NCBI RefSeq assembly: GCF_012275445.1
Contig: NZ_JAAZQK010000001.1
Span: forward strand, 243,198 to 307,197
DNA from: Rhizobacter sp. SG703
Lineage (GTDB): Bacteria > Pseudomonadota > Gammaproteobacteria > Burkholderiales > Burkholderiaceae_C
Length of the DNA stretch: 64,000 bases
Direction of reading: 5' to 3'
Shown here: piece by piece, positions 22,645 through 62,207 of the stretch
Layout of the letters: each line of letters opens with the position of its first letter
Numbering within the stretch: position 1 is the stretch's first letter
Notes under the pieces: model-generated
The model's input: the letters and a program-made list of their open reading frames with translations, nothing else
Databases searched by the model: none
Told to the model about the DNA's origin: nothing
Position numbers and translations under genes: made by a program

Positions 22645-23571
22645 ATGAACTCTTCGTCTTCGGCCCCGGTGGCCGCCCACCGCGCGCACGCGCCGTGGAT
22701 CGCCTACCTCTGCCTCGGCAGCTCGATGGCCCTGGTGGGCAGCTATGTGGGGCTGTCGAAGCTGCTGCTGGCGGTGTTCCCGGTCTTCCTGCTGGCCTGG
22801 CTGCGCTTCGGCATGGCGGCGGTCGCGATGGCCGGCTGGGTGAAGCGCCGGCCCGGCGAAACGCCGCTGAGCCGGCACGACCGCATCCTGCTGTTCTTCG
22901 AATCCTTCTTCGGCAACTTCCTGTTCTCGATCTGCATGCTGTTCGGCGTCGGCCTCAGCTCCGCGCTGGCGGCGGGCGTGATCATGGCGGCGATCCCGGC
23001 CGCAGTGGCGATCCTGTCGCGGCTGTTCCTGAAGGAGCGCATCGTGCCGCGCGTGGCGATGGGCATTGCGTGCGCGGTCGGCGGCATCGCGCTGGTGTCG
23101 GTGGTGGCGCACGGCGGTGACGACCAGGGCGGCAGCTCGCTGCTCGGCAACCTGCTGCTGTCCGGCGCGGTGATCTGCGAGGCCTCGTACGTGGTGATGG
23201 GCAAGAAGCTGACCGGCAACGTGTCGGCCAGGCGCATCAGCGCGCTGGTGAACCTGTGGGGGCTGGCGCTGGTGACGCCGCTCGGGCTGTGGCAGGCGAT
23301 GTCGTTCGACTTCGGCGCGGTGCAGCCGGGCTCGTGGTCGCTGCTGCTGTTCTATTCGCTGGCGGCCAGCATGGTCACCGTGTGGCTGTGGATGACCGGC
23401 CTGCGCCAGGTGCCGGCGTCATCGGCGGGCATCTTCACGGTGCTGCTGCCGATCAGCGCGGCGGCGATCGGCGTGGTGTTCCTCGGCGAGCGGATCAGCG
23501 CGACGCAGGCCGCGGCCTTCGGCCTGGCGATTGCCGGCGTGCTGCTGGCGACCTGGCCCCGCCGCTCGTAG
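22645..23571 (+). CDS. EamA/DMT-family transporter
   Basis: A 308-residue integral membrane protein of the drug/metabolite transporter superfamily. About ten hydrophobic segments are arranged as two EamA repeats; the second ends with the familiar LLPISAAAIGVVFLGERIS motif. It lies 33 bases after the GlnT-like gene and is probably the last gene of the polyamine operon. It could export an amine or amino acid overflow product, but DMT substrates are not predictable from sequence. The last 153 bases are overlapped on the other strand by the acylase frame. Confidence 0.85.
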   Translation: MNSSSSAPVAAHRAHAPWIAYLCLGSSMALVGSYVGLSKLLLAVFPVFLLAWLRFGMAAVAMAGWVKRRPGETPLSRHDRILLFFESFFGNFLFSICMLFGVGLSSALAAGVIMAAIPAAVAILSRLFLKERIVPRVAMGIACAVGGIALVSVVAHGGDDQGGSSLLGNLLLSGAVICEASYVVMGKKLTGNVSARRISALVNLWGLALVTPLGLWQAMSFDFGAVQPGSWSLLLFYSLAASMVTVWLWMTGLRQVPASSAGIFTVLLPISAAAIGVVFLGERISATQAAAFGLAIAGVLLATWPRRS

Positions 23572-25965
23572 CCGGATCGTGCGCAACGCGGGATCGCGCG
23601 CGATCTCGTCCTCGTGGAACGGAAAGCGCAGCCACGCGCGGCGGGCATGGCGCGCGACCGACGGCTCGGCCGCGCCCTCGCCCGCTTCGACCGCGCCGTC
23701 GCTCTCGCCATGCGCGAGCAAGGTGTCGGCCACCACGCCGCGCGGCCCGAAGCGCACCACCTGCAGGTAGCTGTTGGCGACCGCGTCCGGGCCGATGCCG
23801 TGCGTGTCGTCGCCATCGCAGACCACCGCGACGTAGCCCGCGCCATGGCAGCCGCCGTACAGCGCGAGCTGCTCGCCACCGCTGCGCACGAAGCGGCGCC
23901 GGCCCAGCGGTTCGTCGAGCGCCCAGCCGCGTTCGGCGAATGCCGCGACCGTGGCCGCCAGCGCCTGCGCGATGCGCGGATCGGAACCGTTCGGCGCGCG
24001 CGGTGTGTCCAGCGGCGACTGCGGCAAGAACGGCACGCCGAACAGCTCGGCATCGGGCAGGTCCTCGAGCCGCGCCCACAACGCATCCCACAGCAGCGCG
24101 CCGCGCGCGTCGGGCTCCGCGCGGCCGGACCAGCGCGCGAGCACCTCGCAGGCCCGACCCACGTCGGCCATCGCCGGTGCCGCGCAGCTCGGCGCCAGCA
24201 GCTCGCGCCGGAATCGCTCCGCCGCCCAGGCCCGCGGCGCGAGCACCGCCCGCTTCAGCCGTCCGGCCAGCGCCTCGGCCGAGCGCGCCGGCGCCGTCGC
24301 CAGCTCCTGCGCGATCGTGTGGCCCAGCCGCGCGCGCAGCGACAAGGCCTGCCGCTGCGCACCGATCACGCTCGGGTAGCCTTCCAGCGGCTGCTGCACG
24401 CTGAACAGCCAGTGGCTGTCGTTCATGTTCTCGACGTGGTCGCTGCGCAGCAGGCTCGGCAGCGCCGCCACCGGCATCGCACCCGGCTGCGGTGCCGCGG
24501 CATCGGCGGCCCAGTCGCAGTCCGCGCGGCTGCCGTCGAGGAACGGCGTGGCCGCATCGATCTGCGCGAAGCCGCGCGACAGCGCGGTGCTGCAGCGCTC
24601 GCGCAGCGCATCGGGCACGTTCGGCACCGTGCCCACGTCGGCGATCCACACCCGGCCGTCGCCGCGCCCGATGGCCGCGGTGTTGACCCACGGCATGCCG
24701 GCCTCGCGGCGCTGGATCGCGATGAAGTCGTCCAGCGAGCGCGCCTGGTTCCACGCGAAGAAGGTGCGGAACACCCGGAAGTTGTCGGCATTGATGTCGC
24801 GCAGCGCCAGGGCATGCGCCGTGCCCCAGCCGAACGGCGCGGCGCGCCGGCCGAGGTCGGCGATCGGGCCGAAGCGCGTGCCGTACAGCCGGCGCGTCAC
24901 CGGCTGCAGCGTGCCGTCGGCCGCGCGCACCTGCACCGTGACCTCGCGCGACTGCATCGCCTCGCTGGCACCGTCGACCCGGTAGCGCGTCGGGTCGGCC
25001 GGGTCCAGCGCCAGCTCGAAGAAGCCGAAACGGCGCGCGGCCGACACGGTGTGGCTCCACGCGATGCGGTCGTTGAAGCCGATCATCACCAGCGGCACGC
25101 CGAGGAAGCCGACCCCGGCCACGTCGACGCGGCCCGGGATGCTCAGGTGCATCTGGTAGAAGCGATCGGGTCCGCCCCAGTACCAGTGCGGATTGCCGAA
25201 CAGCACGCCGCCGGCTTCGCCGGTGGCCTCGCGGCCGAACGCCATCATGTTGCTGCCGAGCCCGGCCTGCTCGCCCAGCGGGTGCGCGAGCCGAGCGCGC
25301 AGCGTGCCGTCGTCGTCGGCCGCCTGGCCGACCTTCGCTGCGTCGGCCGTCGCGGGCCGCGCGTTGACGATCTCGGGAATGAAGCGCGCCTGCCCCGCGG
25401 CGACCTGCGCGGCGAACAGGCGGCGCAGGATGTCGTCGCCGGCGATCTCGTGCACCCACGGCTCGCGCAGGCAGGCCTGGCGCGGCGCGCCGGGTTGGCC
25501 GCGGACGTTGTCGCGTGCAGCGCTGCGCGCCTCCACGAGGTAGCGGTTGTAGCCGTCCGCATACCCGTCGGCCGCGGCCAGCAGGTCTGGCTGCAGCGCA
25601 GCGCGCGAACGCGCGAGCATCGCGTCGTCGGCGAACGCGCGGAAGTAGAAGTCCAGCTCCAGGTTGGTCGGCCGGCCGAAGGTGGACAGCCGCGCCGGCC
25701 GTGCGTCGGCCCCGAAGTGCTGCGATCGTTCGCCGCGCCAGGTGGTGAAGGCCTCGGCCAGCGTGCACAGCGCGTCCTGCGCCTGCGCATAGCCGATGCC
25801 GACGCCGAGCTCGCGCCAGCCTGGCGCGCGAATGTGCGGGATCCGGTCGGCGGTGCGGCGGATCTCGACGTCGCCCACCGGCGCCGCAGCCGCCGTCGAG
25901 ACCAGCAGCGGTGCCGACAGCAGCGGTGCGAGCGCGAGCAGCAGGCGTCGAATCGACAGGCTCAT
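23419..25965 (-). CDS. Periplasmic Ntn-hydrolase acylase (penicillin acylase / PvdQ family)
   Basis: An 848-residue secreted amidohydrolase precursor. A signal peptide covers residues 1-28 (MSLSIRR, hydrophobic, TAAAA). The autoproteolysis site is the GLG-SNMMAFG motif; Ser at about residue 237 would become the N-terminal nucleophile of the beta subunit, followed by GVLFGNPHWYW as in PvdQ-type enzymes. PvdQ removes the fatty acyl chain from pyoverdine precursor in the periplasm. Since this locus has a fatty acyl-AMP ligase loading module, the same job is likely here, though acyl-homoserine-lactone cleavage is an alternative. The ATG at 25965 overlaps the stop of the formyltransferase. The last 50 or so residues are Arg-rich and antisense to the transporter gene, and look unlike the family. 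Confidence 0.85.
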   Translation of the reverse strand: MSLSIRRLLLALAPLLSAPLLVSTAAAAPVGDVEIRRTADRIPHIRAPGWRELGVGIGYAQAQDALCTLAEAFTTWRGERSQHFGADARPARLSTFGRPTNLELDFYFRAFADDAMLARSRAALQPDLLAAADGYADGYNRYLVEARSAARDNVRGQPGAPRQACLREPWVHEIAGDDILRRLFAAQVAAGQARFIPEIVNARPATADAAKVGQAADDDGTLRARLAHPLGEQAGLGSNMMAFGREATGEAGGVLFGNPHWYWGGPDRFYQMHLSIPGRVDVAGVGFLGVPLVMIGFNDRIAWSHTVSAARRFGFFELALDPADPTRYRVDGASEAMQSREVTVQVRAADGTLQPVTRRLYGTRFGPIADLGRRAAPFGWGTAHALALRDINADNFRVFRTFFAWNQARSLDDFIAIQRREAGMPWVNTAAIGRGDGRVWIADVGTVPNVPDALRERCSTALSRGFAQIDAATPFLDGSRADCDWAADAAAPQPGAMPVAALPSLLRSDHVENMNDSHWLFSVQQPLEGYPSVIGAQRQALSLRARLGHTIAQELATAPARSAEALAGRLKRAVLAPRAWAAERFRRELLAPSCAAPAMADVGRACEVLARWSGRAEPDARGALLWDALWARLEDLPDAELFGVPFLPQSPLDTPRAPNGSDPRIAQALAATVAAFAERGWALDEPLGRRRFVRSGGEQLALYGGCHGAGYVAVVCDGDDTHGIGPDAVANSYLQVVRFGPRGVVADTLLAHGESDGAVEAGEGAAEPSVARHARRAWLRFPFHEDEIARDPALRTIRLRAAGPGRQQHAGNRQAEGRGLRRADPLAEEHHADRRRADRQQHREDARR

Positions 25966-26822
25966 GACGTCTCCTTCGCCCGTTCGGCGAGTGTCGCGAG
26001 CCCGCGCTGCAGCGCAGGGAACAGGCTCCGGTGGAAGTTGTTCCAGCGCAGCTCGAGGATGGTGTCGGCCGGGTCGATCTCGGTGGCCAGCACGTCGACG
26101 ATCACCTCGCCCGAATCGATGCCGTTGTCGACGTAGTGGAACGACGCACCGGTCTGCCGCACCGGCTCGACCGGCGTGCGCGCCATCGTGCGCCAGTCGA
26201 TGCGTTCGCCCCGGGCGCCGTGCAGCGCATCGAGCGTGGCCCACGCGCCGCGCCGCTGGTGCGGCGAGCCGTCGCGCGTGATGCCGGGATGGATGTTGAC
26301 GATGCGGCGGTGGAACGGCGCGCCCGGCCGCACCAGCGCGTCGAGGATGACCAGCAGGCCGTCGAGCACGACGACGTCGGCCCGCAGCGCGAGCAGCCGC
26401 GCCAGCAGCCGGGTTTCGAAATCGCGCTTGCCGGCCACGCGATCCGCCGCGCCGAGCGGCAGCCGGCGGTAGTGGGATGGCACCGTTTCCAGCAGCTCGA
26501 CGAGCGGCCGGCCCTGCACCTGCAGCGCCGGCGGGAACGGCCAGCAGCGGCTCGGGTGCGGCGAGAAGCCGTAGTCCTTCAGCAGCTCGCGGTCGCGCGG
26601 GTTGCCTTCGTCGTCGTCGACGATCACCGCCTGCAGCGAATACGCATCGCCGAGCGCGCTGCCGTTCAGCGTCTCGACCAGGAATTCGAGCGGCGACTTC
26701 ATGTAGCGCTGCCCGCCCTTGAACGCGACGGGCTGCCCGGCGCGGTCGGCGGCCGCGTTGCGCAGCGACGCGATGTAGACGAGCCTGGCCGGTCTCTCTG
26801 GCGGTCTGGTTGACGGTTCCAT
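25962..26822 (-). CDS. Hydroxyornithine formyltransferase (PvdF-like)
   Basis: A 286-residue protein of the formyltransferase fold. The N-terminal LVYIASLRNAAAD and KSPLEFLVETLNGSALGD resemble PvdF, which formylates N5-hydroxyornithine from N10-formyl-tetrahydrofolate. The catalytic region VNIHPGITRDG supplies the conserved Asn and His, with the Asp in DNGIDSGEVI. Product would be N5-formyl-N5-hydroxyornithine for the NRPS. The ATG at 26822 is preferred over one at 26829-26831, because the latter lies inside the proposed promoter -10 element (26832-26835) and would not be transcribed. It leads a two-gene operon with the acylase, and is divergent from the acetyltransferase. Confidence 0.82.
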   Translation of the reverse strand: MEPSTRPPERPARLVYIASLRNAAADRAGQPVAFKGGQRYMKSPLEFLVETLNGSALGDAYSLQAVIVDDDEGNPRDRELLKDYGFSPHPSRCWPFPPALQVQGRPLVELLETVPSHYRRLPLGAADRVAGKRDFETRLLARLLALRADVVVLDGLLVILDALVRPGAPFHRRIVNIHPGITRDGSPHQRRGAWATLDALHGARGERIDWRTMARTPVEPVRQTGASFHYVDNGIDSGEVIVDVLATEIDPADTILELRWNNFHRSLFPALQRGLATLAERAKETS

Positions 26823-26831: not shown

Positions 26832-26858
26832 GACGAAGCACGGGCCGCGCTGTTCAGC
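26832..26858 (-). promoter_or_regulatory. Predicted ECF sigma promoter for formyltransferase-acylase operon
   Basis: On the minus strand GCTGAACA (26858-26851) is followed after exactly 15 bases by CGTC (26835-26832), then ATG. The same arrangement and spacing occur in front of the divergent acetyltransferase and in front of mbtH. A -35-like element about 16 bases from a CGTC -10 is the known form of promoters read by PvdS/OrbS-type iron-starvation sigma factors. The proposed start codon is only 9 bases beyond CGTC, so the transcript may be leaderless. Confidence 0.7.
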
Positions 26859-26869
26859 GAACGACGTCG

Positions 26870-26896
26870 GCTGAACAAACCCATCGACCGCTCGTC
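26870..26896 (+). promoter_or_regulatory. Predicted ECF sigma promoter for acetyltransferase operon
   Basis: GCTGAACA (26870-26877), 15 bases, CGTC (26893-26896). The element matches the mbtH promoter beyond the core: both continue AACAAACCC after GCTG and have CTCGTCATGGA at the -10. It is back-to-back with the minus-strand promoter; the two -35 elements form an inverted repeat 11 bases apart centred on CGACGTCG. The ATG of the acetyltransferase begins 8 bases after CGTC, at or next to the expected transcription start. Confidence 0.72.
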
Positions 26897-26904: not shown

Positions 26905-28041
26905 ATGAACAGCGGCACCCCCCCACGACCCTCTCCCGACTTTGCAGCACCGCGCTGCGTGAGCCATCCGTTCGGCCAGGCGCTGCAGGTGCAGCGCGAC
27001 GGCGACCGGCTGGTGGTGACCGACCCGCAGCCGGCGCGTGCGGGCGATGCGCCTCGCGACCGCATCGGCCGCTGGCAGTGGCGGCACGGCATCGATGCAG
27101 GCCAGGACCCGGAACTGCAATGGCTCGGCCCCTGCTCCGGCGAGCCGTCGGCCGCCCACCTGCTGGCGATCCTCGAGGCGGCGTTCACCTTCGAGCCGCA
27201 CACCGCCCGCCTGCTGCTGCAACCGCCGTTCGCATCGGCGCTGAACCTGGTCGAGCACGGCCTCGCGCTGCCGGCCACCGGCGGCCGATGCATCGTGCAC
27301 CGCGAGATGTTCTTCCAGCACGCGCCGATGTGGCTGCCGCAGGTGGCCTCGCCGATCCCGCTGCGTTACGCACTCACCGGCGACCGCCGCCACCCGCTGC
27401 GCGCGGCCAAGCGCCGAGGCGTGCTGTACCAGCGCCACATCCCGTGGCTGGACCGCACGTTCTCGTTCCGCAGCCTCGACATCGATGCCGACCTGCCGCG
27501 CTTCCACCGCTGGATGAACGACCCCGACGTGGCCCAGGTCTGGCAGGAAGACGGCGACCTCGCGAAGCACCGCGGCTACCTCGACGCCATCGCCGCCGAC
27601 CCGCACATGCAGTCGATGATCGCCTGCCTGGACGGCGAGCCCTTCGGCTACTTCGAGGCCTACTGGGCGAAGGAGAACCGCATCGCGCCGTTCTGCGAGG
27701 CCGACGACCACGACCGCGGCTGGCATGTGCTGATCGGCGAACCGGACTTTCGCGGCAAGGCCTTCGCGACCGCGTGGCTCACGTCGATCTCGCACTACCT
27801 GTTCCTCGCCGACCCGCGCACCCGGCGCATCGTCGGCGAGCCGCGCGCCGACCACCGGCAGCAACTGCGCAACCTCGACCGCTCCGGCTACGCGAAGGTC
27901 AAGGAGTTCGACTTCCCGCACAAGCGCGCGATGCTGGTGACGCTGCTGCGCGAACGCTTCTTCACCGACACGCTGTGGTGGCCGCGCGAGGACGAGGCCC
28001 CCTTCGCCATCACCTCCACCACCCTGCAGGCAAGGACATGA
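26905..28041 (+). CDS. Siderophore hydroxamate acetyltransferase (IucB/RhbD-like GNAT)
   Basis: A 378-residue protein whose C-terminal half is a GNAT-fold acyltransferase of the siderophore type. Characteristic pieces are FHRWMNDPDVAQVWQEDG, GEPFGYFEAYWAKENRI and RGWHVLIGEPDFRGKAF, the acyl-CoA-binding region. These enzymes N-acylate hydroxyornithine or hydroxylysine with acetyl-CoA or a longer acyl-CoA. The N-terminal half (about residues 1-180) is the usual poorly conserved extension. The ATG at 26905 has GGAGG before it, but the predicted promoter puts transcription start close to this codon. The stop overlaps the monooxygenase start (ATGA), so hydroxylation and acylation are coupled genetically. 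Confidence 0.88.
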   Translation: MNSGTPPRPSPDFAAPRCVSHPFGQALQVQRDGDRLVVTDPQPARAGDAPRDRIGRWQWRHGIDAGQDPELQWLGPCSGEPSAAHLLAILEAAFTFEPHTARLLLQPPFASALNLVEHGLALPATGGRCIVHREMFFQHAPMWLPQVASPIPLRYALTGDRRHPLRAAKRRGVLYQRHIPWLDRTFSFRSLDIDADLPRFHRWMNDPDVAQVWQEDGDLAKHRGYLDAIAADPHMQSMIACLDGEPFGYFEAYWAKENRIAPFCEADDHDRGWHVLIGEPDFRGKAFATAWLTSISHYLFLADPRTRRIVGEPRADHRQQLRNLDRSGYAKVKEFDFPHKRAMLVTLLRERFFTDTLWWPREDEAPFAITSTTLQART

Positions 28042-29312
28042 GCATGCGCGTGCACGACCTCATCGGCATCGGCTTCGGGCCGTCGAACCTGGCGCTGGCG
28101 ATCGCGCTCGACGAGCAGCGGCGCGCCGGACGGCCGCTCGTCGACGCGCTGTTCATCGAGCGCCAGCCGGGCTTCGCATGGCATCCGGACATGCTGCTGC
28201 CGCACGCCCACATGCAGATCTCGTTCCTGAAGGACCTGGCGACGCTGCGCAACCCGACCAGCCGCTTCACCTTCGTGAACTACCTGCACCAGCAGGGCCG
28301 CTTGCAGGACTTCATCAACCTGAAGACCTTCTACCCGAGCCGCCGCGAGTTCAACGACTACCTCGGCTGGGCGGCCGCGCAGTTCGACGACAGCTGCGTG
28401 TACGGCGAAGAGGTGGTCGAGGTGCTGCCGCAGGCGCAGGGCCGCGAGGTGTCGCTGCTGCGGGTGCGCTCGCGCGACGCCGCCGGCCAGTGGCACGAGC
28501 GGCTCGCGCGCCACCTGGTGGTCAGCATCGGCGGCACCGCCCACATCCCCGAGGCCTTCCGCATACTGGCCGGCGACCCGCGGGTGATGCACTCCAGCGG
28601 CTACCTGGCGGGCATGGCGCGGCATGCCGATGCGAAGCGCATCGCGATCGTCGGCGCCGGCCAGAGCGCGGCCGAGCTGTTCATCGACCTGCATGGCCGG
28701 CCGAACGCGCCGCAGGTCGACCTCATCATGCGGGCCCGCGCGATCCGGCCGGCCGACGACAGCCCGTTCGTCAACGAGATCTTCAACGCCGGCTTCGTCG
28801 ACCACGTCTATGCGCAGCCCGAGGCGCAGCGGGCCGAGATGCTGGCGGCGTTCCGCCACACCAACTACGCCTGCGCCGACCTCGACCTGATCCGGCAGAT
28901 GTTCGCGGTGTTCTACGAGCAGCGCGTCAGCGGCGACGAGCAGCACCGCTTCCTGCGGCGGCACGAGATCCAGAGCGTGCGCGCCGCGCCCGACGGCATC
29001 CACCTGAACCTGCTCGACGTCGACGCCTCGCGCGAGAGCAGCCAACGCTACGACGCGGTGGTGCTGGCGACCGGCTATGCGCGCGAGCAGCACCATGCGC
29101 TGCTCGGCGAGCTGGCACCGTGGCTCGGGCGCCTGCAGGTCGACCGCGACTACCGCGTGATCGCGCCGCGCGAGTTCCGCCCGGCGGTGTTCCTGCAGGG
29201 GGCCTGCGAGACCACTCACGGGCTCAGCGACACGCTGCTGTCGATCACCGCGGTGCGCTCGAACGAGATCGCGACGAACCTTGCTACACTCAATGCGAAC
29301 AATTCTCATTGA
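28038..29312 (+). CDS. L-ornithine N5-monooxygenase (PvdA/IucD family)
   Basis: FAD- and NADPH-dependent hydroxylase making N5-hydroxyornithine, the hydroxamate precursor. The 424-residue protein has the FAD motif GIGFGPSNLALAIAL at residues 9-23, the substrate-region QISFLKDLATLRNPTS, the NADPH motif IVGAGQSAAE at about residue 210, and the C-terminal VLATGY and THGLSDTLLS segments. Together these are diagnostic for PvdA/SidA/IucD enzymes; ornithine is preferred over lysine because a PvdF-like gene is nearby. The ATG at 28038 overlaps the acetyltransferase stop. The sigma gene follows 20 bases later, and a Fur-box-like sequence lies in the last codons. Confidence 0.9.
   Translation: MSMRVHDLIGIGFGPSNLALAIALDEQRRAGRPLVDALFIERQPGFAWHPDMLLPHAHMQISFLKDLATLRNPTSRFTFVNYLHQQGRLQDFINLKTFYPSRREFNDYLGWAAAQFDDSCVYGEEVVEVLPQAQGREVSLLRVRSRDAAGQWHERLARHLVVSIGGTAHIPEAFRILAGDPRVMHSSGYLAGMARHADAKRIAIVGAGQSAAELFIDLHGRPNAPQVDLIMRARAIRPADDSPFVNEIFNAGFVDHVYAQPEAQRAEMLAAFRHTNYACADLDLIRQMFAVFYEQRVSGDEQHRFLRRHEIQSVRAAPDGIHLNLLDVDASRESSQRYDAVVLATGYAREQHHALLGELAPWLGRLQVDRDYRVIAPREFRPAVFLQGACETTHGLSDTLLSITAVRSNEIATNLATLNANNSH
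29294..29308. promoter_or_regulatory. Fur-box-like site before the first ECF sigma gene
   Basis: TGCGAACAATTCTCA matches the common 7-1-7 Fur half-site pair TGAGAAT-N-ATTCTCA at 12 of 14 positions. It sits inside a longer inverted repeat, AATGnGAA and TTCnCATT (29292-29310). The site lies in the final codons of the monooxygenase gene, 24 bases before the sigma-factor ATG. It suggests that the sigma/anti-sigma pair has its own iron-repressed promoter in addition to readthrough. Confidence 0.6.
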
Positions 29313-29332
29313 GCGAGGTGCTCTTCCAACGC

Positions 29333-29911
29333 ATGCGCGAGCTGATCCAGGAACTGGTGGCCCATTGTGCGGACCTGCGGCGGCAGCTGACGCGCGAGCT
29401 GCGCGATCCGCAGCACGCGGCGGACATCGCGCAGTCGAGCTTCGAGCGGGTCTATGCGCTGGCGCTGGGCGACGGGCCTCAGGCGTCGATCGCATCGCCG
29501 CGCGCGCTGCTGTTCCGCGTGGCGCGCAACCTGTGCATCGATGAAGCCCGGCACCGGCAGGTGGCCCAGCGCTGGCTGGTGGAGCAGTCGCCGATGGGCC
29601 TGCATGCGGCGGCGCCGTCGTGCGAATACGTGCATGCGCAGCGCCAGGTGCTGCGGCGCGTGATCGGCGTGCTGGAATCGCTGCCGCCGTTGCGGCGCGA
29701 GGTGTTCCTGCTGTTCCGCGCTTATGGCTTCACGCGCACCGAGATCGCCGGGCGGCTGACGCTCAGCGAAGCGGCGGTGGCCAAGCACCTGGTGCGCGCG
29801 GCGCTCGACTGCTCGCGGGTGTTTGCTGAGATGCAGGCCGAGTTGATCGAGGCACCTGCCGTCTCACCGCGCAGCAGTTTCCGCGCGACCTTGGCCGAGG
29901 ACTGGGCGTGA
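29333..29911 (+). CDS. fecI: ECF sigma factor, FecI type
   Basis: A 192-residue sigma-70 family protein with only regions 2 and 4. Region 2 covers about residues 20-75 (DIAQSSFERVYAL, RALLFRVARNLCIDEARH). Region 4 is LPPLRREVFLLFRAYGFTRTEIAGRLTLSEAAVAKHLVRA at about 117-157. Such factors direct transcription of ferri-siderophore receptor genes and are controlled by a FecR partner, which here starts in a GTGA overlap with this gene's stop. The ATG at 29333 was chosen as the first strong start; a TTG at 29309 in frame would overlap the Fur-like site. The likely target is the TonB receptor at 32958. Confidence 0.88.
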   Translation: MRELIQELVAHCADLRRQLTRELRDPQHAADIAQSSFERVYALALGDGPQASIASPRALLFRVARNLCIDEARHRQVAQRWLVEQSPMGLHAAAPSCEYVHAQRQVLRRVIGVLESLPPLRREVFLLFRAYGFTRTEIAGRLTLSEAAVAKHLVRAALDCSRVFAEMQAELIEAPAVSPRSSFRATLAEDWA

Positions 29912-30906
29912 GCCGCGCCGTGGTTGCCGAGAAGCTGATCGAGCACGCGCTCGACCTGGTCGTGAAGAGCGAGGTCGAGCCCGAGCCGGCGGCCGGCCGG
30001 GCGCTCGCGCGGCTGCGGCAGTGGATCTGCGAATCGCCCGATCACGCCGCGGCGGCCGATGAAGCGCGCCGGCGTTGGCAGATGCTGGGCGGTCTGTCCG
30101 ACGGGCTGCGCGAGCATTTCGAGGAGCCGGTCGCCGCGCCGGGGCGGCGCAACCTGCTGCTGTCGGCGGCTGCGGTGCTCGGCGGTGCGGCACTCGCCGG
30201 CCGGCTGGGTTGGCAATACTGGCAGGCGCCGGTGTTCACGGCGGCGTATCGGACGCAGCCGTTGCAGTTGCTCGACGTCACGCTGCCCGATGCCCAACCC
30301 GGCACGCAGCTGGCGTTGGGCGCCGACAGCGCGATCGACGTTCGGCTGCATCGGCAGCGGCGCATCGTGCGGCTCGACGGCGGCGAACTGCGTTGCGACG
30401 TGGCGCACGATCCGGCGCGGCCGTTCCAGGTGCTGACGCGCGACGCGCGCATCGAGGTGCTGGGCACGGTGTTCAGCCTGCGTGACCGCGGCGGTGCACT
30501 GACGGTCGGTGTCGAACGCGGGCGGGTGCAGGTGGCCTTGCGTGACGCGGCGGTGGATGGCGACGCAGACCGCTTCGGCCCACCCATCGTGCTGGGCGCT
30601 GGCGAGCTGATGGACATCCGCAACGGCATCGCGCAGCCGCCGCGCCCGGGCGATGCGGCCGCCCTCGCCGGCTGGCGCGACGGCTGGCTGAGCTTCCAGG
30701 ACACCCCGCTGCGCGAGATGCTCGCGAGCGTCAATGCCTACCGCGCCTCGCCCATCGTCAGCACCGATTCACGCGTCAACGCGATGCGGCTGACCGGCCG
30801 CTTCCCGGTGCGGGATGCGGCCGGGTTGCTGGCGGCGTTGCCGCAGGTGCTGCCGGTCACCGTCCGCCTGCGCATGGACGGTGGGGTTGAACTCGCCGCT
30901 CATTGA
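29908..30906 (+). CDS. fecR: FecR-family anti-sigma factor / signal transducer
   Basis: Inner-membrane regulator, 332 residues, starting with GTG within the sigma-gene stop. The cytoplasmic N-terminal domain (about residues 1-75) has the DUF4880-type pattern ending DEARRRWQMLGGL and would hold the sigma factor. A single membrane segment lies at about residues 80-98 (RRNLLLSAAAVLGGAALAGRL). The periplasmic FecR domain follows (DAQPGTQLALGADSAIDVRL, VEVLGTVFSL-type segment), and the C-terminal STN-like portion starts near WRDGWLSFQDTPLREMLASVN. It normally relays binding of the receptor signalling domain to the sigma factor. The AT-rich gene ends 12 bases downstream on the other strand. Confidence 0.9.
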   Translation: MSRAVVAEKLIEHALDLVVKSEVEPEPAAGRALARLRQWICESPDHAAAADEARRRWQMLGGLSDGLREHFEEPVAAPGRRNLLLSAAAVLGGAALAGRLGWQYWQAPVFTAAYRTQPLQLLDVTLPDAQPGTQLALGADSAIDVRLHRQRRIVRLDGGELRCDVAHDPARPFQVLTRDARIEVLGTVFSLRDRGGALTVGVERGRVQVALRDAAVDGDADRFGPPIVLGAGELMDIRNGIAQPPRPGDAAALAGWRDGWLSFQDTPLREMLASVNAYRASPIVSTDSRVNAMRLTGRFPVRDAAGLLAALPQVLPVTVRLRMDGGVELAAH

Positions 30907-32957: not shown

Positions 32958-35351
32958 ATGCGTTCCCTGCCCCGCCAACGCCTGCTCGTCGCAGCGCTGG
33001 CCGCCGCCTTCAGCGGCCCCTTCGCGCTGCCGCGCGCGCTCGCCCAGGCCGCCGTGCTGGCCGAAGCCGAGTTCGACGTCCAGGTGCCGGCCCAGCCGCT
33101 GGATGCCGCGCTGAACGAGCTGTCGCGCCAGACCGGCGTGGCCGTTCTCGCGGCCGGTGACGCCACCAGCGGCAAGACCTCGCGCGCCGTGTCGGGCCGC
33201 TTCAGCGCGGCCCAGGCGCTGCAGCAGATGCTCGCCGGCAGCGGCCTCGAAGCCGCCCGCGCGCCGAATGGCGGCTTCGCGGTGCGCCAGGCGTCGGCCG
33301 GAGCCGCCGCCGAAACCACCCTCCCCGCCCTCACCGTGCGCGCTCGCGCCGATGCCGATGCCGGCGGCTACGTCGCGCAGCACGCCAGCGTCGGCACCAA
33401 GACCGACACGCCGCTGGTCGAGGTGCCGCAGTCGATCTCGGTCATCGGCAGCCAGGAGATCGACGACAAGGGCCAGACGACGCTGACCGATGCGCTCGCG
33501 CAGACGCCGGGCGTCACGGTGAACCCCTACGGCTTCGATTCGCGCGGGCTCGACTGGGTGCTGCTGCGCGGCTTCGACGGCTGGTACACCAGCAGCTTCC
33601 GCGACGGGCTGGCGCAGAACGTCGGCATCACCTTCCTCGGCGTGCAGACCGAGGTCTACGGGCTGGAGCGCCTCGAGGTGCTGCGCGGCCCGTCGTCGGT
33701 GCTGTTCGGCAAGGGCGACGTCGGCGGTGTGGTGAACCGCGTCAGCAAGGTGCCCGGCCCCGACGCCGTGCGCGAGATCGGCGTGCAGACCGGCCGCTAC
33801 GACCGCAAGCAGGCGATGGCCGACCTGGGCGGCGCGATCGATGCCGAAGGGCAATGGCGCTGGCGCGTCGTCGGCCTGGGCCTGGACACCGGCACGCAGG
33901 ACCAGTACCCGAACGGCGAGCGCATGACACAGAAGCGCCAGTACCTCGCGCCATCGCTCAAGTGGCAGCCGACGCCGCAGACCTCGCTGACGCTGCAGGC
34001 CGAGGTGCTGCGCGACGACGGCTCCGACGACGTGCAGTTCGTCAGCACCGCCGACGACCGGCCGACCACGTTGAAGGAAGGCGACCCGTCCTACAGCCGC
34101 ATCGAGACCGGCTCGGATGCGATCGGCTGGCAGTTCGCGCACCGCTTCGACAGCGGCTGGCAGCTGCAGCAGAAGGCGCGCTATGCGCACCGCACGTCGG
34201 ACAAGCACCACATCCAGTCGTTCTACGGCGCCGATCCGAACCTGCTGCTGCGCCAGGCACGGCACGACGTGGAAGCGGTCGACGAGAACAGCATCGACAC
34301 CTCGGTGCAGGGCAAGGTGGACGGTGGCGGCATCTCGCACACGCTGCTGTTCGGCGTCGACATCGACCGCAGCCGGGCCGAGTGGCAGCGCTGGCAGGCC
34401 ATGACGACGCCGCTGGACCTGAGCAACCCGGTCTACGGCGTGCCGATCGCCGAGCCCACATCCCAATCGCGCGACAAGCAGGTGATCCTCGAGCAGGTCG
34501 GGCTGTATGCGCAGGACCAGGTGCGTCTCGATTCGCACTGGGGCCTGACGGTCGGCGTGCGCCAGGACCGGGTGAAGTCGCGCTACGAGAACCGCCTGGC
34601 CGATCCGGCCTTCGGCGAGGTCACCGTCGCCGAGCGCACCGACAACGCGACCACCGGCCGGCTGGGCGTCAGCTACCAGGTCGGCAACGGCTGGGCGCCG
34701 TATGCGAGCTATGGCGAGTCGTTCGTGCCGGTGATGGCGGTGGACGAAGGCGTGCTGTTCGACCCGAGCCGGGGCAAGCAGGTCGAGCTCGGTGTCAAGT
34801 ACATGCCCGAGGGCGAGGCGGTGTCATTCGCCGCGGCGGTGTTCGACCTGGAGAAGACCAACGTCGTGTCCTACGACCCGGTCGACTTCGTGCCGCACGC
34901 GATCGGCAAGGTGCGCTCGCGCGGGATCGAGCTCGAAGCCAAGGCGGCACTGACGCCGCAGCTGCGGCTGACCGGCTCGTTCACGGCGCTGGACATGAAG
35001 GTGCTGTCCAGCGCGATCGACAGCGAGGTCGGCAACATGCCGATCCTGACGCCGAAGCAGACCGCGTCCGTCTGGCTCGACTACGCACTGGGCGCTGCGG
35101 TCGCCCGCGGCGTGAGCATCGGCGGCGGCTTGCGCCATGTCGGCAAGCGCTGGGACAACGGCGCGAACACCGAATCGCAACCGGCCTACACGCTGGCCGA
35201 TGCCGCGGTGCGCTACGACAACGGCCCGTGGCGCTTCGCGCTGAACGTCAGCAACCTGTTCGACAAGGAGTACCTCGCCGGCCACGCGTACGGCAGCTAC
35301 TTCCGCGGCAATGAACGCAATGTGCTGCTGACGGCGAAGTACAGGTTCTGA
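32958..35351 (+). CDS. TonB-dependent ferri-siderophore receptor with signalling domain
   Basis: A 797-residue outer-membrane transporter. The signal peptide ends near ALAQA (about residue 30). Residues about 38-112 form an STN (secretin/TonB N-terminal) domain, FDVQVPAQPLDAALNELSRQTGVAVL, used to signal to FecR. The plug domain follows from about 140 to 260 (VPQSISVIGSQEI, GLERLEVLRGPSSVLFGKGDVGGVVN), then a 22-strand-type barrel ending in the C-terminal Phe of LLTAKYRF. The plug resembles the FhuA/FoxA/FpvA group for hydroxamate siderophores. With the FecI/FecR pair just upstream it completes a cell-surface signalling system, and the locus suggests that its ligand is the siderophore made by the adjacent assembly line. 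Confidence 0.92.
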   Translation: MRSLPRQRLLVAALAAAFSGPFALPRALAQAAVLAEAEFDVQVPAQPLDAALNELSRQTGVAVLAAGDATSGKTSRAVSGRFSAAQALQQMLAGSGLEAARAPNGGFAVRQASAGAAAETTLPALTVRARADADAGGYVAQHASVGTKTDTPLVEVPQSISVIGSQEIDDKGQTTLTDALAQTPGVTVNPYGFDSRGLDWVLLRGFDGWYTSSFRDGLAQNVGITFLGVQTEVYGLERLEVLRGPSSVLFGKGDVGGVVNRVSKVPGPDAVREIGVQTGRYDRKQAMADLGGAIDAEGQWRWRVVGLGLDTGTQDQYPNGERMTQKRQYLAPSLKWQPTPQTSLTLQAEVLRDDGSDDVQFVSTADDRPTTLKEGDPSYSRIETGSDAIGWQFAHRFDSGWQLQQKARYAHRTSDKHHIQSFYGADPNLLLRQARHDVEAVDENSIDTSVQGKVDGGGISHTLLFGVDIDRSRAEWQRWQAMTTPLDLSNPVYGVPIAEPTSQSRDKQVILEQVGLYAQDQVRLDSHWGLTVGVRQDRVKSRYENRLADPAFGEVTVAERTDNATTGRLGVSYQVGNGWAPYASYGESFVPVMAVDEGVLFDPSRGKQVELGVKYMPEGEAVSFAAAVFDLEKTNVVSYDPVDFVPHAIGKVRSRGIELEAKAALTPQLRLTGSFTALDMKVLSSAIDSEVGNMPILTPKQTASVWLDYALGAAVARGVSIGGGLRHVGKRWDNGANTESQPAYTLADAAVRYDNGPWRFALNVSNLFDKEYLAGHAYGSYFRGNERNVLLTAKYRF

Positions 35352-36137: not shown

Positions 36138-39100
36138 TCAGCCGTCCAGCTTCTCCAGCGCTTCCCGCAGCGCCGCATGCAGCTGGGGGCGCCGGATGAT
36201 GTCGAGGTGGCTCGCGCCATCGATCACCCCGGTGGCCGCCACTGGCGCATGCTCCGCCCAGTCGCGCAGGCGGCCGACCGAATCGTTCACCGACGCCGCC
36301 GCCTGGAAGACGTGCAGCGGGGTGTCAAGGCGGCCATGCACCTGGCGCGCGCCCTGCGCCCGCTTGTCGACGGTGGCCCACAGCAGGTACTCCGCCGCGT
36401 CGTCGCCGTCGCCATCGAGCGGCAAGGTCCGGTCGCCGGCCAGCACCTGCTCGGCCAGGCCGTCGCGCTCGGCATCCTCCAGCCGCGCGAACAGCTCGCG
36501 CCACGCCTCGGCCATCGTCGACTTGGCGACCCAGGCGTCGATCTCGCGCCAGGCCAGCGCGCGCTCGTCGACGCCGAGCGGCCGCGACGCGCGCAGCGGC
36601 TCGGTCTCGAACACGTCGACCATGCCGATGAACTCGACCGCGACCCGCCCCTGCAGTTGCCGCGCGACCTCGATCGCCAGGTCGCCTCCCGACGACCAGC
36701 CGAGCAGCGCACAACGCCGCTGCGCCGCCGTCGCCTCGATGAAGGCGGCGTACTCCGCGGCCAGCGCCTCGACCGCGAAGCCGCGCCAGCGCTGGCGCGT
36801 GTAGACATGGCTGACGAAGCCGTGCACCGGCCGCGTCCCCTGCAACGCCTCGGCCAGCGGCAGGAACTCGCGCGAGTTGACGATCATCCCCGGCATGCAG
36901 TACAGCGGCACGCCGGTGCCGCCGGCGTGCAGGCAGATCGCATCGTGCTGCTGCGCGAGCCGCTGCTGCAGCCGCCCGGCCAGCGCGCTCACCCGCGTGG
37001 CCTGCATCAGGTCCGACAAGGCCAGCCCGGCGCCGCCCGGCACCTGCTTGCGGATGCGAGCGATCAGCTTCAGGCTGAGGATCGAATCGCCGCCGAGCTC
37101 GAAGAAGTCGTCGTCGCGGCCGACCGCGTCCGGCCCCAGGCCCAGGACCTCGCCGAACAGGCGCGCCAGGGCCTGCTCGGTGGGCCCGCGCGGCGGATCG
37201 ATGCGGCGGGCCGGCGCCGATGGCTGCGGCCGCGGCAGCGCGTTGCGGTCGATCTTGCCGTTCGGCGTCAGCGGCATCGCGTCGAGCACGACGACCGCCT
37301 CCGGCACCAGCGGGGCCGGCAGGCTGGCCTGCAGCGCGAGCCGCACGGCGGCGGCGTCCAGCGTCGCGCCGGCGCGCGCGACGACGTAGGCCCACAGCAC
37401 GGCGCTGCCGCTCTCGCCTTCGCCGGCCACCACCGCCGCATCCGCGACGCCGTCGATCGCGCGCAGCTGCGCGTGCAGTTCACCGGGTTCGACCCGGAAG
37501 CCGCGGATCTTCAGCTGGTCGTCGTTGCGGCCGAGGAACACCAGCGCGCCGTCGCTGCGCTGGCGCACGCGGTCGCCGGTGCGGTACAGCCGCTCGCCCG
37601 CCGACGAGTCGCCGAACGGCGATGCGACGAAGCGGCTCGCAGTCAGCCCCGGCTGCCCGAGGTAGCCGCGCGCGACACCCGGCCCGCCGACGAACAGCTC
37701 GCCGGCGATGCCCGGTTGCACCGGCGCCAGCGACTCGTCGAGCACGAACGCGGACATGCCGCCGATCGGCCGGCCGAGCGGCAACGCCGCATCGCCGTCG
37801 CCGGCGACGTGCATCAGCATGCCGACGCAGGTCTCCGTCGGCCCGTAGTGGTTGACGATGCGCAGCCCCGGCCGCAGCGCGCGCACGGTGGCCAGCAGCG
37901 CGGCATCGGCCGCCTCGCCGCCGAGCACCAGCGTGTGGGCCGGCAGCACGTCGTGCGGCCGCGCGGCGTTCAGCAGCCCCTTCAGGTGGCTCGGCACGAT
38001 CTTCAGCACGTCGATGCGGTGGCGGGCCATCGCGTCGGCGAACGCATCGGGGTCGAAGGCCGCGGCGCTGTCGAGCATCAGCAGGCTGCCGCCGGAACAC
38101 AGCGCGCCGAACAGCGCCGTGTGGCCCAGGTCGGCGGCGACGGTCGAGACCATCGCGAAGCGCAGGCCCGCCGGCAGCGGCAGACCATCGGCGTCCGCCA
38201 GCCGCGCCAGCATCGCCTGCGCGTAGTTCGCGAGCGCGCCGTGCGAGACGAGCACGCCCTTCGGCGCACCGGTCGAGCCGGAGGTGTAGATCAGGTACGC
38301 GGCCTGGTCGGGCAGCAGCACCGGTTCGGGCGCCAACGACGATGGCCCTGACGCCTCGAAGCGCGGCACCATCACGGGCAGCGTGCTCCACGGCACCGGC
38401 CCGGCCGCCATCAGCGCGCGCGCACCGCAGTCGCGCACCAACGCCTGCAGGCGCGGCACCGGCAGCGACGGGTCCAGCGGCACGGCCACGGCGCCGGCCT
38501 TCATCACCGCCAGCATCGCCAGCACGAACGGGCTGCCGCGTTCCAGCAGCAGCGCCACGCGCGCCTCGGCGCCGATGCCGCGCCGGGCCAGCTGCGCGGC
38601 CAGCTGGCGCGCGGCGCGCTGCAGCTGCGCATGGGTGTGCGAGCCCCGCGCGTCGAGCAGGGCCGGCTGCTGCGCATGCCGTTCGGCCTGCGCGGCCCAC
38701 AACGCCGGAATGCCGTGCCACGGCCATGACGGCGCCTCGCCGTGCAGCACCGACGGGGTGCCGGGCAGCGTGGTCGACGCCAGCGCGCGCTGCGGGTCGG
38801 CGGCGACCTGCGCCGCCAGGTGCACGAAGGCGGCCGCCAGCCGGTCGATCGTCGTGCGGTCGAACAGGTCGGTCGCCCAGGCGAGCTGGAAATCCAGGCC
38901 GCGGGCGTTTTCCATCAGGTCCAGGCTCAGGTCGAAGTGCACCTCGTCGACCGCGACGGCGTCGATCTCGATCTGCAGGCCGCCACCGGCCGCCAGCTCC
39001 GCGGCGCCACCGGTGGCCTGCGACGCGCACTTCACCTGGAACAGCGGGTTCAGCCCGGCGCTGCGCTCGATGCCGAGCGCTTCGACCAGCTGGTCCAGCG

Positions 39101-40193
39101 GCAGGTGGGCATGCTGCCGCGCGGCCAGCAGCCGCTCGCGCACCTGGCGCAGCAGCGCCGCGAAGCCGGCCTGCGGGTCGACGCGCAGCCGCAGCACCAG
39201 CACGTTGGTGAAGTGGCCGACCATGCCGGCCAGCTCGGGCCGGTCGCGGTTCGCCGACGGCACGCCGATGCACAGCTCGCGGTCGCCGCCGTAGCGGTGC
39301 AGCAGCAGTGCGAGCAAGGCGAGCGTCAGCATCGCGGGCGACGCGGCATCGCGGCGTGCCAGCGCGAGCAAGGCATCGCCGGTCGCGGGCGGCAGGCCGA
39401 AGGCCAGCAGCTCGCCGCGGGCGCTGCGCCGTGCGCCGCGCGGCCGGTCGAGCGGCAGCGTGGTGGTGGGCGGCGCGTCGCGCAGTTCGTCGACCCACCA
39501 GGCCCGCTGGCGCGCCAGCTCGCCGGCGGCCAGCCAGCGTTGCTGCCACTGCGCGTGGTCGGCGTACTGCAAGGCGGGCGGCTCGAGCGCCTGCGCCGGG
39601 TCGCGCAGCAGCGACGACAACTCCTGCAGCAGCAGCGCCACCGAGCCGCCGTCGGCCGCGATGTGGTGCACGCCGAGCAGCAGCACCAGCGCGCCGTCGG
39701 CCTCGCGGTGCAGCGCCGCGCGGAAGACCGGGCCGCGCTCCAGGTCGAAGGGCCGGGCCGCGAAGGCATGCGCGGCGGCATCGGTGCAGGGTCCATGAAC
39801 CGACCATCCGGATCCCGTCGACACGTCCTCCGTCTCGTCGACGATCTGCACCGCCTGCCCGTCGGCATCGAGACCGATCCGCGTGCGCAGCACCGCATGC
39901 CGCTGCACCAGCCGGCGCACCGCCGCCTGCACCTCGTCGGCGCAGCAGCCGCCGCGGATGCGCAGGCGCCCGGCCAGGTTGTAGGCCGGCGATTGCGGTG
40001 CGCGCTGCCAGGCCAGCCACAGCGCGCGCTGCGCCGGGGCCAGCGGCGCCGGCGTGCCGGGCTCGCGGGCGATCGGCGGCAGCGCGTCGAAGCCGATGCC
40101 TTCGGCGCGCAGGCGCTCGAGGAAGGCCGCGCGCTTGCCCTGCGGCAACTGCGCGAAGCGGCGCGACAGCGAAGCCAGTTCCATCGTCGTCAT
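36138..40193 (-). CDS. Nonribosomal peptide synthetase, C-A-T-TE (aspartate-type terminal module)
   Basis: The last enzyme of the assembly line, 1351 residues. Condensation domain with HHIAADG at about residue 178; adenylation domain with [11 protein letters not shown] at about 634; carrier domain with [10 protein letters not shown] at about 1034; thioesterase with GWSSGG at about 1166 and a late DGASH histidine. Aligning the adenylation pocket by eye to GrsA gives DLTKVGHVGK, almost the textbook aspartate code. The aspartate is probably beta-hydroxylated by the SyrP-type enzyme of the same operon, giving an iron ligand. The TE would release the chain as a free acid or a cycle. The start overlaps the previous stop as ATGA. 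Confidence 0.92.
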
Positions 40194-43100
40194 TCCAGCG
40201 TGTCTTCCAGTGAGTCTTCAAGTTCAGCGAGCAGCGCGCCGAGCCGCTCCGCGGTGCCGGCGGTCGACGGGGCCGGCAACGCAGCCGCCTGGCCGGCCAG
40301 CGTCGGGTGATCGAACACGGTGCGCAGCGGCACCTCCAGCCCCAGGCGGTGCCGCAGCTCGGCGACCAGCCGCACCGCGAGCAGCGAATGCCCGCCGAGC
40401 TCGAAGAAGTGATCGTGGCGGCCGACGTGCGGCACGCCGATCACCTCGCACCAGAGCGCCGCCAGCGCCTGCTCGGTGTCGCCGAGCGGCGGCACGTGCG
40501 CGGCCTCGTCGGCCGTGTCGGGCTCGGGCAGCGCGCGCCGGTCGACCTTGCCCACGGGGTTCAACGGCAGCGCCGGCAACGGCACCAACGCGGACGGCAG
40601 CATGTGCTCGGGCAACAGCGTCGCGAGCCGCGCGCGCAGCGCTGGCGGCTCGATCGATGCGCCGGGTTGCAGCGACACCCAGGCCACCAGCCGCGGCCCC
40701 GCCGACGAGGGCCGCGCGAGCACGACGGCCTCGCGCACCTCCGGCTGTGCCAGCAGCGCGGCCTCGATCTCGCCGAGCTCGATGCGGAAGCCGCGCAGCT
40801 TGACCTGGTGGTCCAGGCGGCCGAGGTACTCGATCTGGCCGTCGTCGTTCCAGCGCACCACGTCGCCGGTGCGGTAGAGCCGGCCGCCGTGGGCGTCGAA
40901 CGGATCGGCGACGAAGCGCTCGGCGGTCAGGCCCGGGCGCCCGAGGTAGCCGCGGGCCAGCAGCGGGCCGCCGATGCACAGTTCGCCGGCGACGCCGACC
41001 GGTACCGGGTGCAGGTCGGCATCGACGATGCGCAGCGCGCGGCCGGGCAAGGCGGTGCCGATCGGCACGGTGGACGGCAGCGGTGCGTCGCGGCGGACGA
41101 ACGGCGTGCAGTCCAGCGCCGCGGCGGTCGCGGTGGCCTCGGTCGGGCCGTAGGCGTTCAGCAGCGTCACGTGCGACAGGCCGGCGTCTCGCCAGGCCTG
41201 GAGGCCTTGCGGGGACATCGCCTCGCCACCGACGGTGACCTGGCGCAGTGCGCCCACATCGCCGCCGGGGTCGCGCGCGAAATCCTGCGCGAGCAACTGC
41301 CAGTACGCCGTCGTCAGGTCGGCGACGCTGATGCGCCGCGCGATCACCTCGCGGCGGAACTGCGCGCTGTCCCAGACCTCCGGGCCGCGCAGCACCACCG
41401 CGGCACCGATCGCCAGCGGTGCGAACAGCTGCTCGACGAAGGCGTCGAAGTTCAGCGTCGCGAACTGCAGCACGCGGTCGCCGGGCACGAGGCCGAAGCA
41501 CCCGGCCGCCGCGTGCACATGCCGCGCCAGCGTCCGGTGCGACACCCCCACGCCCTTCGGCCGGCCGGTCGAGCCGGAGGTGTGGATCACGTACGCGAGT
41601 TGATCCGGGTGCAGTGCGAGCTGCGGATCGCTCGCCGGTTGATGCTTCAGCGCGTCGGCATCCAGCTGCGCCAGCACCAGCGCGATGCCGCTGTCCTCCA
41701 CCATCGCCTGGCGCCGCTCGGCCGGATAGGCCGGGTCCAGCGGCACATAGGCCGCGCCGGCCTTCAGCACCGCCAGCACCGCGACGATCATCTCCATCGA
41801 CCGATCGAGCGCGATCCCGACGCAGGCCTGCGGCTGCACGCCCTGCGCGATCAGCTGGTGCGCGAGCCGGTTGGCCTGCGCGTTCAGTTCGCCGCGGCTC
41901 AGTTCGAGATCGCCGAACACCAGTGCCGTCGCGTCGGGCTGCACCCGGGCCAGCCGCTCGATCGTGCGGTGCACCGGCTCGGCCTCGGCGTGCGATTCGA
42001 TCACCGCGTTCTCACCCAGCCGCAGCAGCCGTTCGCGTTCGCCCTGCGCCAACAGCACCAGCTCGCCGACACACGCCCCCGGCTCGTGCACGAAGGCCGC
42101 CAGCACCCGCTCGACCTGCCCGGCCAGCCGCGCCACGGTCGCCTCGTCGAACGCGCCGTGCGCAAAGCGGTAGTCGAAGGCCAGCTGCTCGCCCTGGTGC
42201 AGCGCCAGCGTCAACGCATAGTGCGTGTCGTCGCTCGTGCTCGATGCACCGACGCGCAACCCGCCCGGCGGCGCCTCGCGCAGTGCCGCATCGATCGGGT
42301 AGTTCTCGAATACCAGCAGGCTGTCGAACAGCGCCTGCCCGCCCTGCCCGGCCCAGCGCTGGATCTCGACCAGCGGCGTGTGCTCGTGCTCGCGCGCCGC
42401 GAGCCCCTGCGCCTGCAGTTCGCGCAGCCAGTCGCCGAGCCGCTGCGCCGGGCGCAGTGTCGCCAGCACCGGCAGCGTGTTGATGAACAGCCCCAGCATC
42501 TGCTGCGCCCCCGGCAGCTCGGCTGGCCGGCCGGCGACGGTGCTGCCGAAGCACACCGTGCGCTGACCGGTGCAGCGCGCCAGCACCAGCGCCCAGGCGG
42601 CCTGCACCAGCGTGTTGATCGTCACCCGCTCGCGCCGCGCCGCGCCAACCAGCGGCTGCACCGCCAGCGTGCGGCGCAGGCCGCCCTGGCCGGGCCGCGG
42701 CGCAGCCGGCTTGCGCAGCGCCGAGGCGAGCTGCGTCGGCGCCTCCAGCCGCGCGAGCTGTGCGCGCCAGTGCGCTTCGCCGGCAGCCGGATCGCGCGCC
42801 AGCAGCCACGCGATGTGGTCGCGGAAGCGCCCGAGCGGCGGCGGCAAGGTCGCACCGTCGTACGCGCGCAGCACCTCGCCAAGCAACAGCGAGCTGCTCC
42901 AGCCGTCGAGCAGCAGGTGGTGCACGGTCCACACGACGTGGTGCCGGTCGTCCCGCGTGCGCAGCAGCGCGACGCGCATCAACGGCGGCTGCGCCAGGTC
43001 GAGCGGCGCCGAGAGTTCGGCCTGGGCGAAGTGGTCGACCTCCGCCGCGCCGCGGCCGCGCCAGTCCTGCACCGACCACGGCAGGTCGGCGCGGCGCGCC

Positions 43101-47953: not shown

Positions 47954-60947
<12,994 letters not shown>

Positions 60948-60951
<4 letters not shown>

Positions 60952-61973: not shown

Positions 61974-62207
61974 TCAAGGTCCTGCCGCGGCCTGCTCGTC
62001 CATCCAGCGGCGCAGCGACAGCGGCCGCATGTCGGTCCATGCGGCGTCGACGAAGGCCAGCACGGTCTTCTTGTCGCCGCTGGCGCCGGGCACCGCGGTC
62101 CAGCCGGCGGGCACGGCCTTCCAGTGCGGCCAGATGGAATATTGGTCCTCGTGGTTGACGAGCACGATGAAGGTGTCGTCGTCGCGGTCGAAGCAGCTGG
62201 TGGACAT
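61974..62207 (-). CDS. MbtH-like NRPS accessory protein
   Basis: A 77-residue protein with the invariant MbtH signature: [17 protein letters not shown], then VPAGW and [14 protein letters not shown]. MbtH proteins bind adenylation domains and are needed for their solubility or activity; one copy usually serves the whole assembly line. It is the first gene after the predicted ECF promoter at 62251-62277 and leads the biosynthetic operon. The expected untranslated leader is about 35-40 bases. The gene ends 57 bases before the hydroxylase start. Confidence 0.96.

Follow-up and report, generated by a model that had tools for sequence, protein, structure and literature searches.

A variant iron-starvation promoter at siderophore genes of Rhizobacter sp. 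SG703 and the ECF sigma factor that probably reads it

Which sigma factor reads a promoter-like motif that stands in front of several siderophore transcription units of the soil bacterium Rhizobacter sp. SG703, and how does its unusual -35 element relate to known iron-starvation promoters? The window, that is, the whole stretch of 64 kb analyzed here, carries by its domain matches a hybrid NRPS-PKS siderophore cluster, including a FecI/FecR/TonB-receptor set and a second ECF sigma factor gene (Table 1). A preliminary description of this DNA had placed three exact copies of GCTGAACA-N15-CGTC in front of formyltransferase, acetyltransferase, and mbtH genes. All three are present where it put them, the gene names agree with the Pfam domains, and AACAAACCC and CTCGTCATGGA are indeed common to the plus-strand copy and the mbtH copy. 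The three sites are very probably promoters of the sigma factor encoded at 62678-63202, an iron-starvation ECF sigma factor of the PvdS/OrbS type in which changes of the recognition helix match a G at promoter position -34.

The formyltransferase shares 97% identity with its counterpart in Rhizobacter sp. Root1238 and 89% with the one in Rhizobacter sp. OV335. A minus-strand ORF of 580 amino acids (30919-32661) separates fecR from the TonB receptor gene; it has 47.2% GC in a window of 70.6% GC, gave no match in Pfam and NCBIfam searches, and is probably of foreign origin.

Table 1. Promoters, genes, and predicted regulatory sites of the siderophore cluster (positions in the window)
Feature	Position	Strand	Details
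Formyltransferase operon promoter	26832..26858	-	-35 GCTGAAC, N16 after TGAAC, -10 CGTC at 26835-26832; exact motif
Acetyltransferase/ornithine monooxygenase operon promoter	26870..26896	+	-35 GCTGAAC, -10 CGTC at 26893-26896; exact motif
mbtH-NRPS transcription unit promoter	62251..62277	-	-35 GCTGAAC, -10 CGTC at 62254-62251; exact motif
N-hydroxyornithine formyltransferase	25962..26822	-	PF00551; ATG 9 nt past -10 CGTC
Penicillin-amidase-type acylase	23419..25965	-	PF01804; overlaps formyltransferase end; presumably PvdQ-like
GNAT acetyltransferase	26905..28041	+	PF13523; ATG 8 nt past -10 CGTC
L-ornithine N5-monooxygenase	28038..29312	+	PF13434
FecI-like ECF sigma factor, cell-surface-signalling type	29309..29911	+	Sigma70_r4_2 and r2, within ORF 28178-29911
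FecR-type sigma regulator	29908..30906	+	PF04773
TonB-dependent siderophore receptor with STN signalling domain	32958..35351	+	PF00593, PF07715, PF07660
Siderophore NRPS-PKS genes, four ORFs	36138..60942	-	Condensation, AMP-binding, KS, AT, KR, and thioesterase domains
TauD-family dioxygenase	60948..61916	-	PF02668
mbtH	61974..62207	-	PF03621; start 43 nt past its -10 CGTC
Stand-alone DUF4880 ORF, ~76 aa	62380..62610	-	PF16220; between sigma factor gene and mbtH
Iron-starvation ECF sigma factor, proposed reader of the motif	62678..63202	-	Sigma70_r2 and r4; Ala151 at 62750-62752, Thr155 at 62738-62740
Fur box, predicted	63236..63254	.	15/19 bases, upstream of sigma factor gene

Specificity of the motif and extent of the regulon

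Against a mean expectation of 0.02 copies, the window holds three exact copies of the motif, and three or more were reached in 0 of 100 shuffles. A genome-wide scan, which the preliminary description had proposed, gave a divided answer. The loose motif is unspecific: 12 exact matches in 6.51 Mb compare with 5 for the reversed pattern, the figures rise to 2317 and 1269 when up to two mismatches are allowed, and 8 of the 12 exact matches lie neither within the window nor at the additional site described below. Since the loose motif is so common in this high-GC genome, it was ruled out as a genome-wide classifier. Specificity comes from the flanking bases. In the window's genome (G000), GCTGAAC-N14-YTCGTCATG has four perfect matches, 10 at two mismatches, and none in between (reversed pattern, 5 at two mismatches or fewer), and the figures for zero, one, and two mismatches are 4, 0, and 9 (reversed pattern, 5) in G002 and 4, 0, and 12 (reversed pattern, 11) in G008, both of the same genus; because the extended motif was built from the sites of G000, only the counts of G002 and G008 are out of sample, and their sites are orthologous. 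The shorter form TGAAC-N14-YTCGTC matches the window's genome 29 times compared to 6 for its reverse; 5 of the 29 are the siderophore sites, 18 fall inside predicted genes, and 6 fall outside, as judged by a rough gene caller.

A comparison with relatives, which the preliminary description had also proposed, shows conservation: the formyltransferase and acetyltransferase promoters are kept in Rhizobacter Root1238 (L019) and OV335 (L020), and orthologous sites stand beside mbtH in other genomes. The motif is real. Mere repetition in high-GC DNA, for which the frequency of the two-mismatch pattern might speak, has next to no credibility, being refuted by the control counts of the exact and extended forms and by their conservation at orthologous places.

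The regulon had been described as three units; these are present, but it is wider. On contig C1, ~245 kb from the divergent pair of the window, an exact copy at 25345-25371 opposes a near copy at 25383-25409, and this pair sits between genes for a FhuF-type ferric reductase (PF06276) and an ABC exporter (PF00005, PF00664). In G008, the exporter site lies within the cluster, ~4 kb from the formyltransferase gene; given its distant position in the window's genome, the promoter would track function rather than location.

Could the back-to-back copies of GCTGAACA instead be a palindromic operator of a repressor or activator, with CGTC incidental? The inverted repeats of the two divergent pairs of the window's genome do have an identical gap, with 11 bp from -35 to -35 at the window's pair and at the fhuF/exporter pair alike. 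Yet the mbtH copy is single and unpaired, and orthologous sites of other genera have the same one-directional layout. In OV335, moreover, the formyltransferase pair has a gap of 10 bp, and the two -35 elements between fhuF and the exporter gene overlap as TTCAGCTGAA, with TGAA(C/T)-N16-CGTC preserved both ways. An operator, ruled out by this varying gap, is thus an extremely improbable reading. As promoters, the two overlapping sites of OV335 probably exclude each other. The overlap in OV335 (L020, 13986 region) is a palindrome, and the fhuF -35 element there is TGAAT.

The promoter class and its candidate sigma factor

That the siderophore units have an ECF-type promoter in common is supported by the exact, conserved motif. 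For its -35 element, a distinct specificity had been suggested; the element does differ from TAAAT/TAAA, but it is not distinct in kind, having the same spacing and -10 element and lying one base from the orthologous TAAAC. For PvdS, the iron-starvation box is given as TAAAT-N16-CGT (PMC2235872). The Rhizobacter sites have the N16 spacing and the CGT of the -10 element, with TGAAC at -35 where the box has TAAAT. Because the spacing is the same, TGAAC-N16-CGTC can be read as an iron-starvation box in which -34 has become G and -31 C, and because TGAAC replaces TAAAT, it is a variant of the PvdS box rather than a member. It is accordingly no new kind of promoter, and the notable change is that from A to G at -34.

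How widespread is this change? We surveyed 80 named loci of formyltransferase orthologues for T-any-AA-C/T-N16-CGT-C/T, leaving -34 free and covering both strands of the 400 bp upstream. A site was found in 39 of the 80 loci and none in 41, including most Burkholderia loci. TGAAC occurs at 14 loci (Rhizobacter, Variovorax, and one Acidovorax), TAAAC at 12 (Azohydromonas, Zoogloea, Azotobacter, Acidovorax facilis, Roseateles, Thauera, Chitiniphilus, Duganella relatives, and Janthinobacterium), TAAAT at 13 (Pseudomonas plus one Janthinobacterium, the latter counted under TAAAC too), and TGAAT and TCAAC at one each.

The sigma factor encoded at 62678-63202 has Sigma-70 regions 2 and 4 only, and its gene stands by mbtH of a siderophore NRPS cluster with one small ORF between, both of which characterize ECF09/ECF243. 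ECF09 genes also have no adjacent anti-sigma gene; here, the intervening ORF encodes DUF4880, related to the sigma-binding N terminus of FecR. OrbS/MbaS of Burkholderia (ECF09, now ECF243) is described as adjoining mbtH in a siderophore cluster and having a Fur box (PMC8908255); the Rhizobacter sigma factor is likewise located by mbtH and likewise has a predicted Fur box. It differs from OrbS in the absence of the C-terminal four-cysteine iron sensor, Cys-X2-Cys-X3-Cys-X5-Cys: cysteines are found only at 63, 74, and 167, C167 being the single C-terminal one. The OrbS helix (L145) is SQTLVHF, and in the B. cenocepacia locus no OrbS promoter was matched by the pattern. With the PvdS system of Pseudomonas, whose formyltransferase loci carry the TAAAT box, the Rhizobacter system shares spacing, -10 element, siderophore genes, and, by prediction, Fur above the sigma factor; it differs in the bases at -34 and -31, in the helix (SAALVNT instead of SPTLVNF), and in having the stand-alone DUF4880 ORF and no adjoining gene for an FpvR-type regulator. 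Siderophore sigma factors of Variovorax and Acidovorax also have TGAAC-N16-CGTC by the sigma factor gene and at the formyltransferase gene, with another helix, ALGLVNG or ALGLVNR. Promoter recognition by OrbS and PvdS has reportedly been treated by Agnoli et al. in 2019. The literature searched, from which subscription journals were mostly absent, yielded no description of TGAAC promoters of siderophore sigma factors or of a covariation between the base and the helix.

Sigma searches found relatives in 13 of 299 genomes of the family, 15 of 399 genomes of the order, and 5 of 43 genomes of family f5, and a profile search found them in 21 of 399 family genomes, these samples overlapping; the closest relatives outside the clade are only ~50% identical. 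The order sigma-[DUF4880]-promoter-mbtH recurs, with a DUF4880 match following the sigma factor gene in 16 of 26 sigma loci and T-R-AA-C/T-N16-CGTC before mbtH in many genomes. In G002 (L221, C48:84000-88000), ~1 kb of repeated sequence separates the DUF4880 ORF from the mbtH promoter, which is intact beside mbtH. DUF4880 is the N-terminal domain of FecR-type regulators, and the stand-alone ORF is similar to the FecR segment by which region 4 of the cognate sigma factor is bound; its product may possibly be a soluble partner of the sigma factor. Such FecR fragments activate FecI, and an FpvR fragment inhibits PvdS (PMC9249621). Upstream of the sigma factor gene, the predicted Fur box scores 15 of 19, a score also attained at the sigma factor genes of G002 and G008 and, within the window, at a single further place in the low-GC ORF at 30957; none of the three promoters scores above 9 of 19. 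Control of the sigma factor by Fur is therefore predicted from the position and score of this box.

Another candidate reader is the FecI-like sigma factor under the control of FecR and the TonB receptor. Its gene belongs to the acetyltransferase operon, and in Variovorax and Acidovorax its orthologues are encoded close to formyltransferase genes, at loci where TGAAC is present as well. It is, nevertheless, a very unlikely reader: at E <= 1e-20, an orthologue is found in 10 of 18 genomes and in none of the other 8, all of which have TGAAC by an iron-starvation sigma factor, although those 8 may have a more distant FecI-like sigma factor. Its helix, SEAAVAKH, is of another type, and the motif tracks the helix of the sigma factor at 62678-63202 instead. 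The pairing with the latter, inferred in the preliminary description, is now backed by gene order, by the match between base and helix, and by the missing orthologues of the rival, and this sigma factor is the most likely reader of the motif. In the mechanism we propose, Fur would leave the box before the sigma factor gene when iron is scarce, the sigma factor would be made, and RNA polymerase carrying it would start transcription at (G)CTGAAC-N16-CGTC, serving the formyltransferase, acetyltransferase/monooxygenase, mbtH-NRPS, ABC exporter, and fhuF units. The -35 element would be the TAAAC/TAAAT of the PvdS/OrbS type with G for A at -34, and the matching changes in the helix would be Thr to Ala at 151 and Phe to Thr at 155.

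Covariation of the -34 base with the recognition helix

Does the base at -34 go along with the sigma factor across genomes? Each distinct sigma factor was paired with its adjoining -35 element or with the formyltransferase -35 element of the same genome, whatever the base at -34; among 54 distinct sigma factors (51 plus 3 added later), 42 were labelled and 12 without a usable site were left out of the count. All 19 sigma factors with TAAAC/TAAAT have Thr151 and Phe155. In the 20 with TGAAC, residue 151 is always Gly (16) or Ala (4), and residue 155 is Gly in 13, Thr in 3, Arg in 2, Ala in 1, and Phe in 1, this last exception being Roseateles L103, labelled TGAAC with Phe155 retained. The three with TGAAT fit poorly at 151/155 (L107, Thr/Phe; L114, Ser/Ile; L175, Pro/Ala), and for L123 (helix STSLANI), one of the 12 left out, the opposite strand carries a TAAAC site by which the rule would be broken. 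The rule was formed on the first 33 labelled pairs, in which column 151 alone split the groups fully and 155 was second best. Two pairs added after the rule fit it, G010 (SATLVNF, TAAAC) and G006 (SLGQVNG, TGAAC), both of the window's genus; the sigma factors of Azohydromonas, Chitiniphilus, Azotobacter, and Janthinobacterium were known before being paired with their promoters at the formyltransferase genes and are supporting rather than blind cases.

Shared ancestry alone could produce such a match, with residues 151 and 155 not setting specificity. Four further columns separated 94% of those 33 rows, so that kinship accounts for part of the signal, and a tree built without the helix columns has just 3 state changes, 2 of them forced by well-supported branches. 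In the independent pairs, position 151 changes in the same direction in 2 of 2 and position 155 in 1 of 2; changes this few permit no significance test, and a fuller phylogenetic test was dropped for the same reason. We nonetheless consider ancestry alone unlikely, since the two best protein columns are those aligned with known contacts to -34, TGAAC was reached by two lineages with different helices (SAALVNT and ALGLVNG), and the later rows of the window's genus fit. On this tree, the -34 state is estimated to have changed at least twice.

In solved ECF sigma factors, to which the alignment is gap-free in the case of SigW, position 151 corresponds to SigW G167 and SigE G168, and position 155 corresponds to SigW T171 and SigE S172. 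SigE contacts -34 by hydrogen bonds of T169 and S172 and hydrophobic contacts of P166/G168/T169, and SigW by T168 and T171, the -35 elements being GGAAC for SigE of E. coli and GAAAC for SigW of B. subtilis (PMC6713349). Both share the AAC core with TGAAC, and the same helix positions contact -34, although these are different sigma groups. A purine contact by itself cannot discriminate A from G, and SigW, which has Gly and Thr at the aligned positions, recognizes A-34 (PMC6713349), so the rule would apply within the iron-starvation family only and not to ECF sigma factors at large. Residues 151 and 155 would be the ones that set specificity in this family. The two states can coexist: in Roseateles G023, a SATLVNF sigma factor goes with TAAAC and a SAALVNF sigma factor with TGAAC. 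The gene of this second sigma factor (L219, C1:951500-961500) stands by a divergent TGAAC pair between PepSY-TM and TonB receptor genes. What is new here, as far as comparison of sequences goes, is that the -34 base covaries with the recognition helix of the sigma factor; reader and promoter code appear to have changed together.

Predicted leaderless mRNAs and what the pairing would mean

In the window's genome, the start codon follows CGTC by 9 nt at the formyltransferase gene, 8 at the acetyltransferase gene, 9 at the exporter gene, 9 at fhuF (GTG), and 43 at mbtH. The first four distances recur unchanged in OV335, and both of those read in Root1238 match. In the formyltransferase gene, the nearest downstream ATG, GTG, or TTG in frame falls within the conserved region of the protein. 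Transcripts usually start 5 to 10 bases past the -10 element, which would leave leaders of 0 to ~4 nt; with start codons 8 or 9 nt past CGTC at four of the five promoters, leaderless mRNAs are predicted, and four of the five mRNAs would begin at or a few bases from the start codon. At mbtH, CGTCATG is out of frame with the gene, so its ATG would be part of the promoter and not of translation. A leaderless start as a family-wide trait was ruled out, since most other loci have normal leaders; at the formyltransferase genes of Variovorax and Acidovorax, the start codon lies 27 to 142 nt from the -10 element in 7 loci among those listed.

What makes this promoter interesting is that the sigma factor appears to have changed along with it and that leaderless starts are predicted. 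More tentative is the broader reading, toward which we are slightly less than evenly disposed, that the whole regulon was recoded at -34 together with the helix, repeatedly and by different residues, with pairs coexisting in one genome, and that the promoters of Rhizobacter are packed, four of five being leaderless. If this holds, the specificity of iron-starvation sigma factors could be read from two helix positions and a single DNA base, a code of which natural examples exist on either side of the switch, and siderophore regulons would become predictable from the sigma factor sequence. It would also explain the absence of cross talk between related sigma factors of one cell, offer a source of orthogonal sigma-promoter pairs, and mean that a betaproteobacterial relative makes leaderless siderophore mRNAs.
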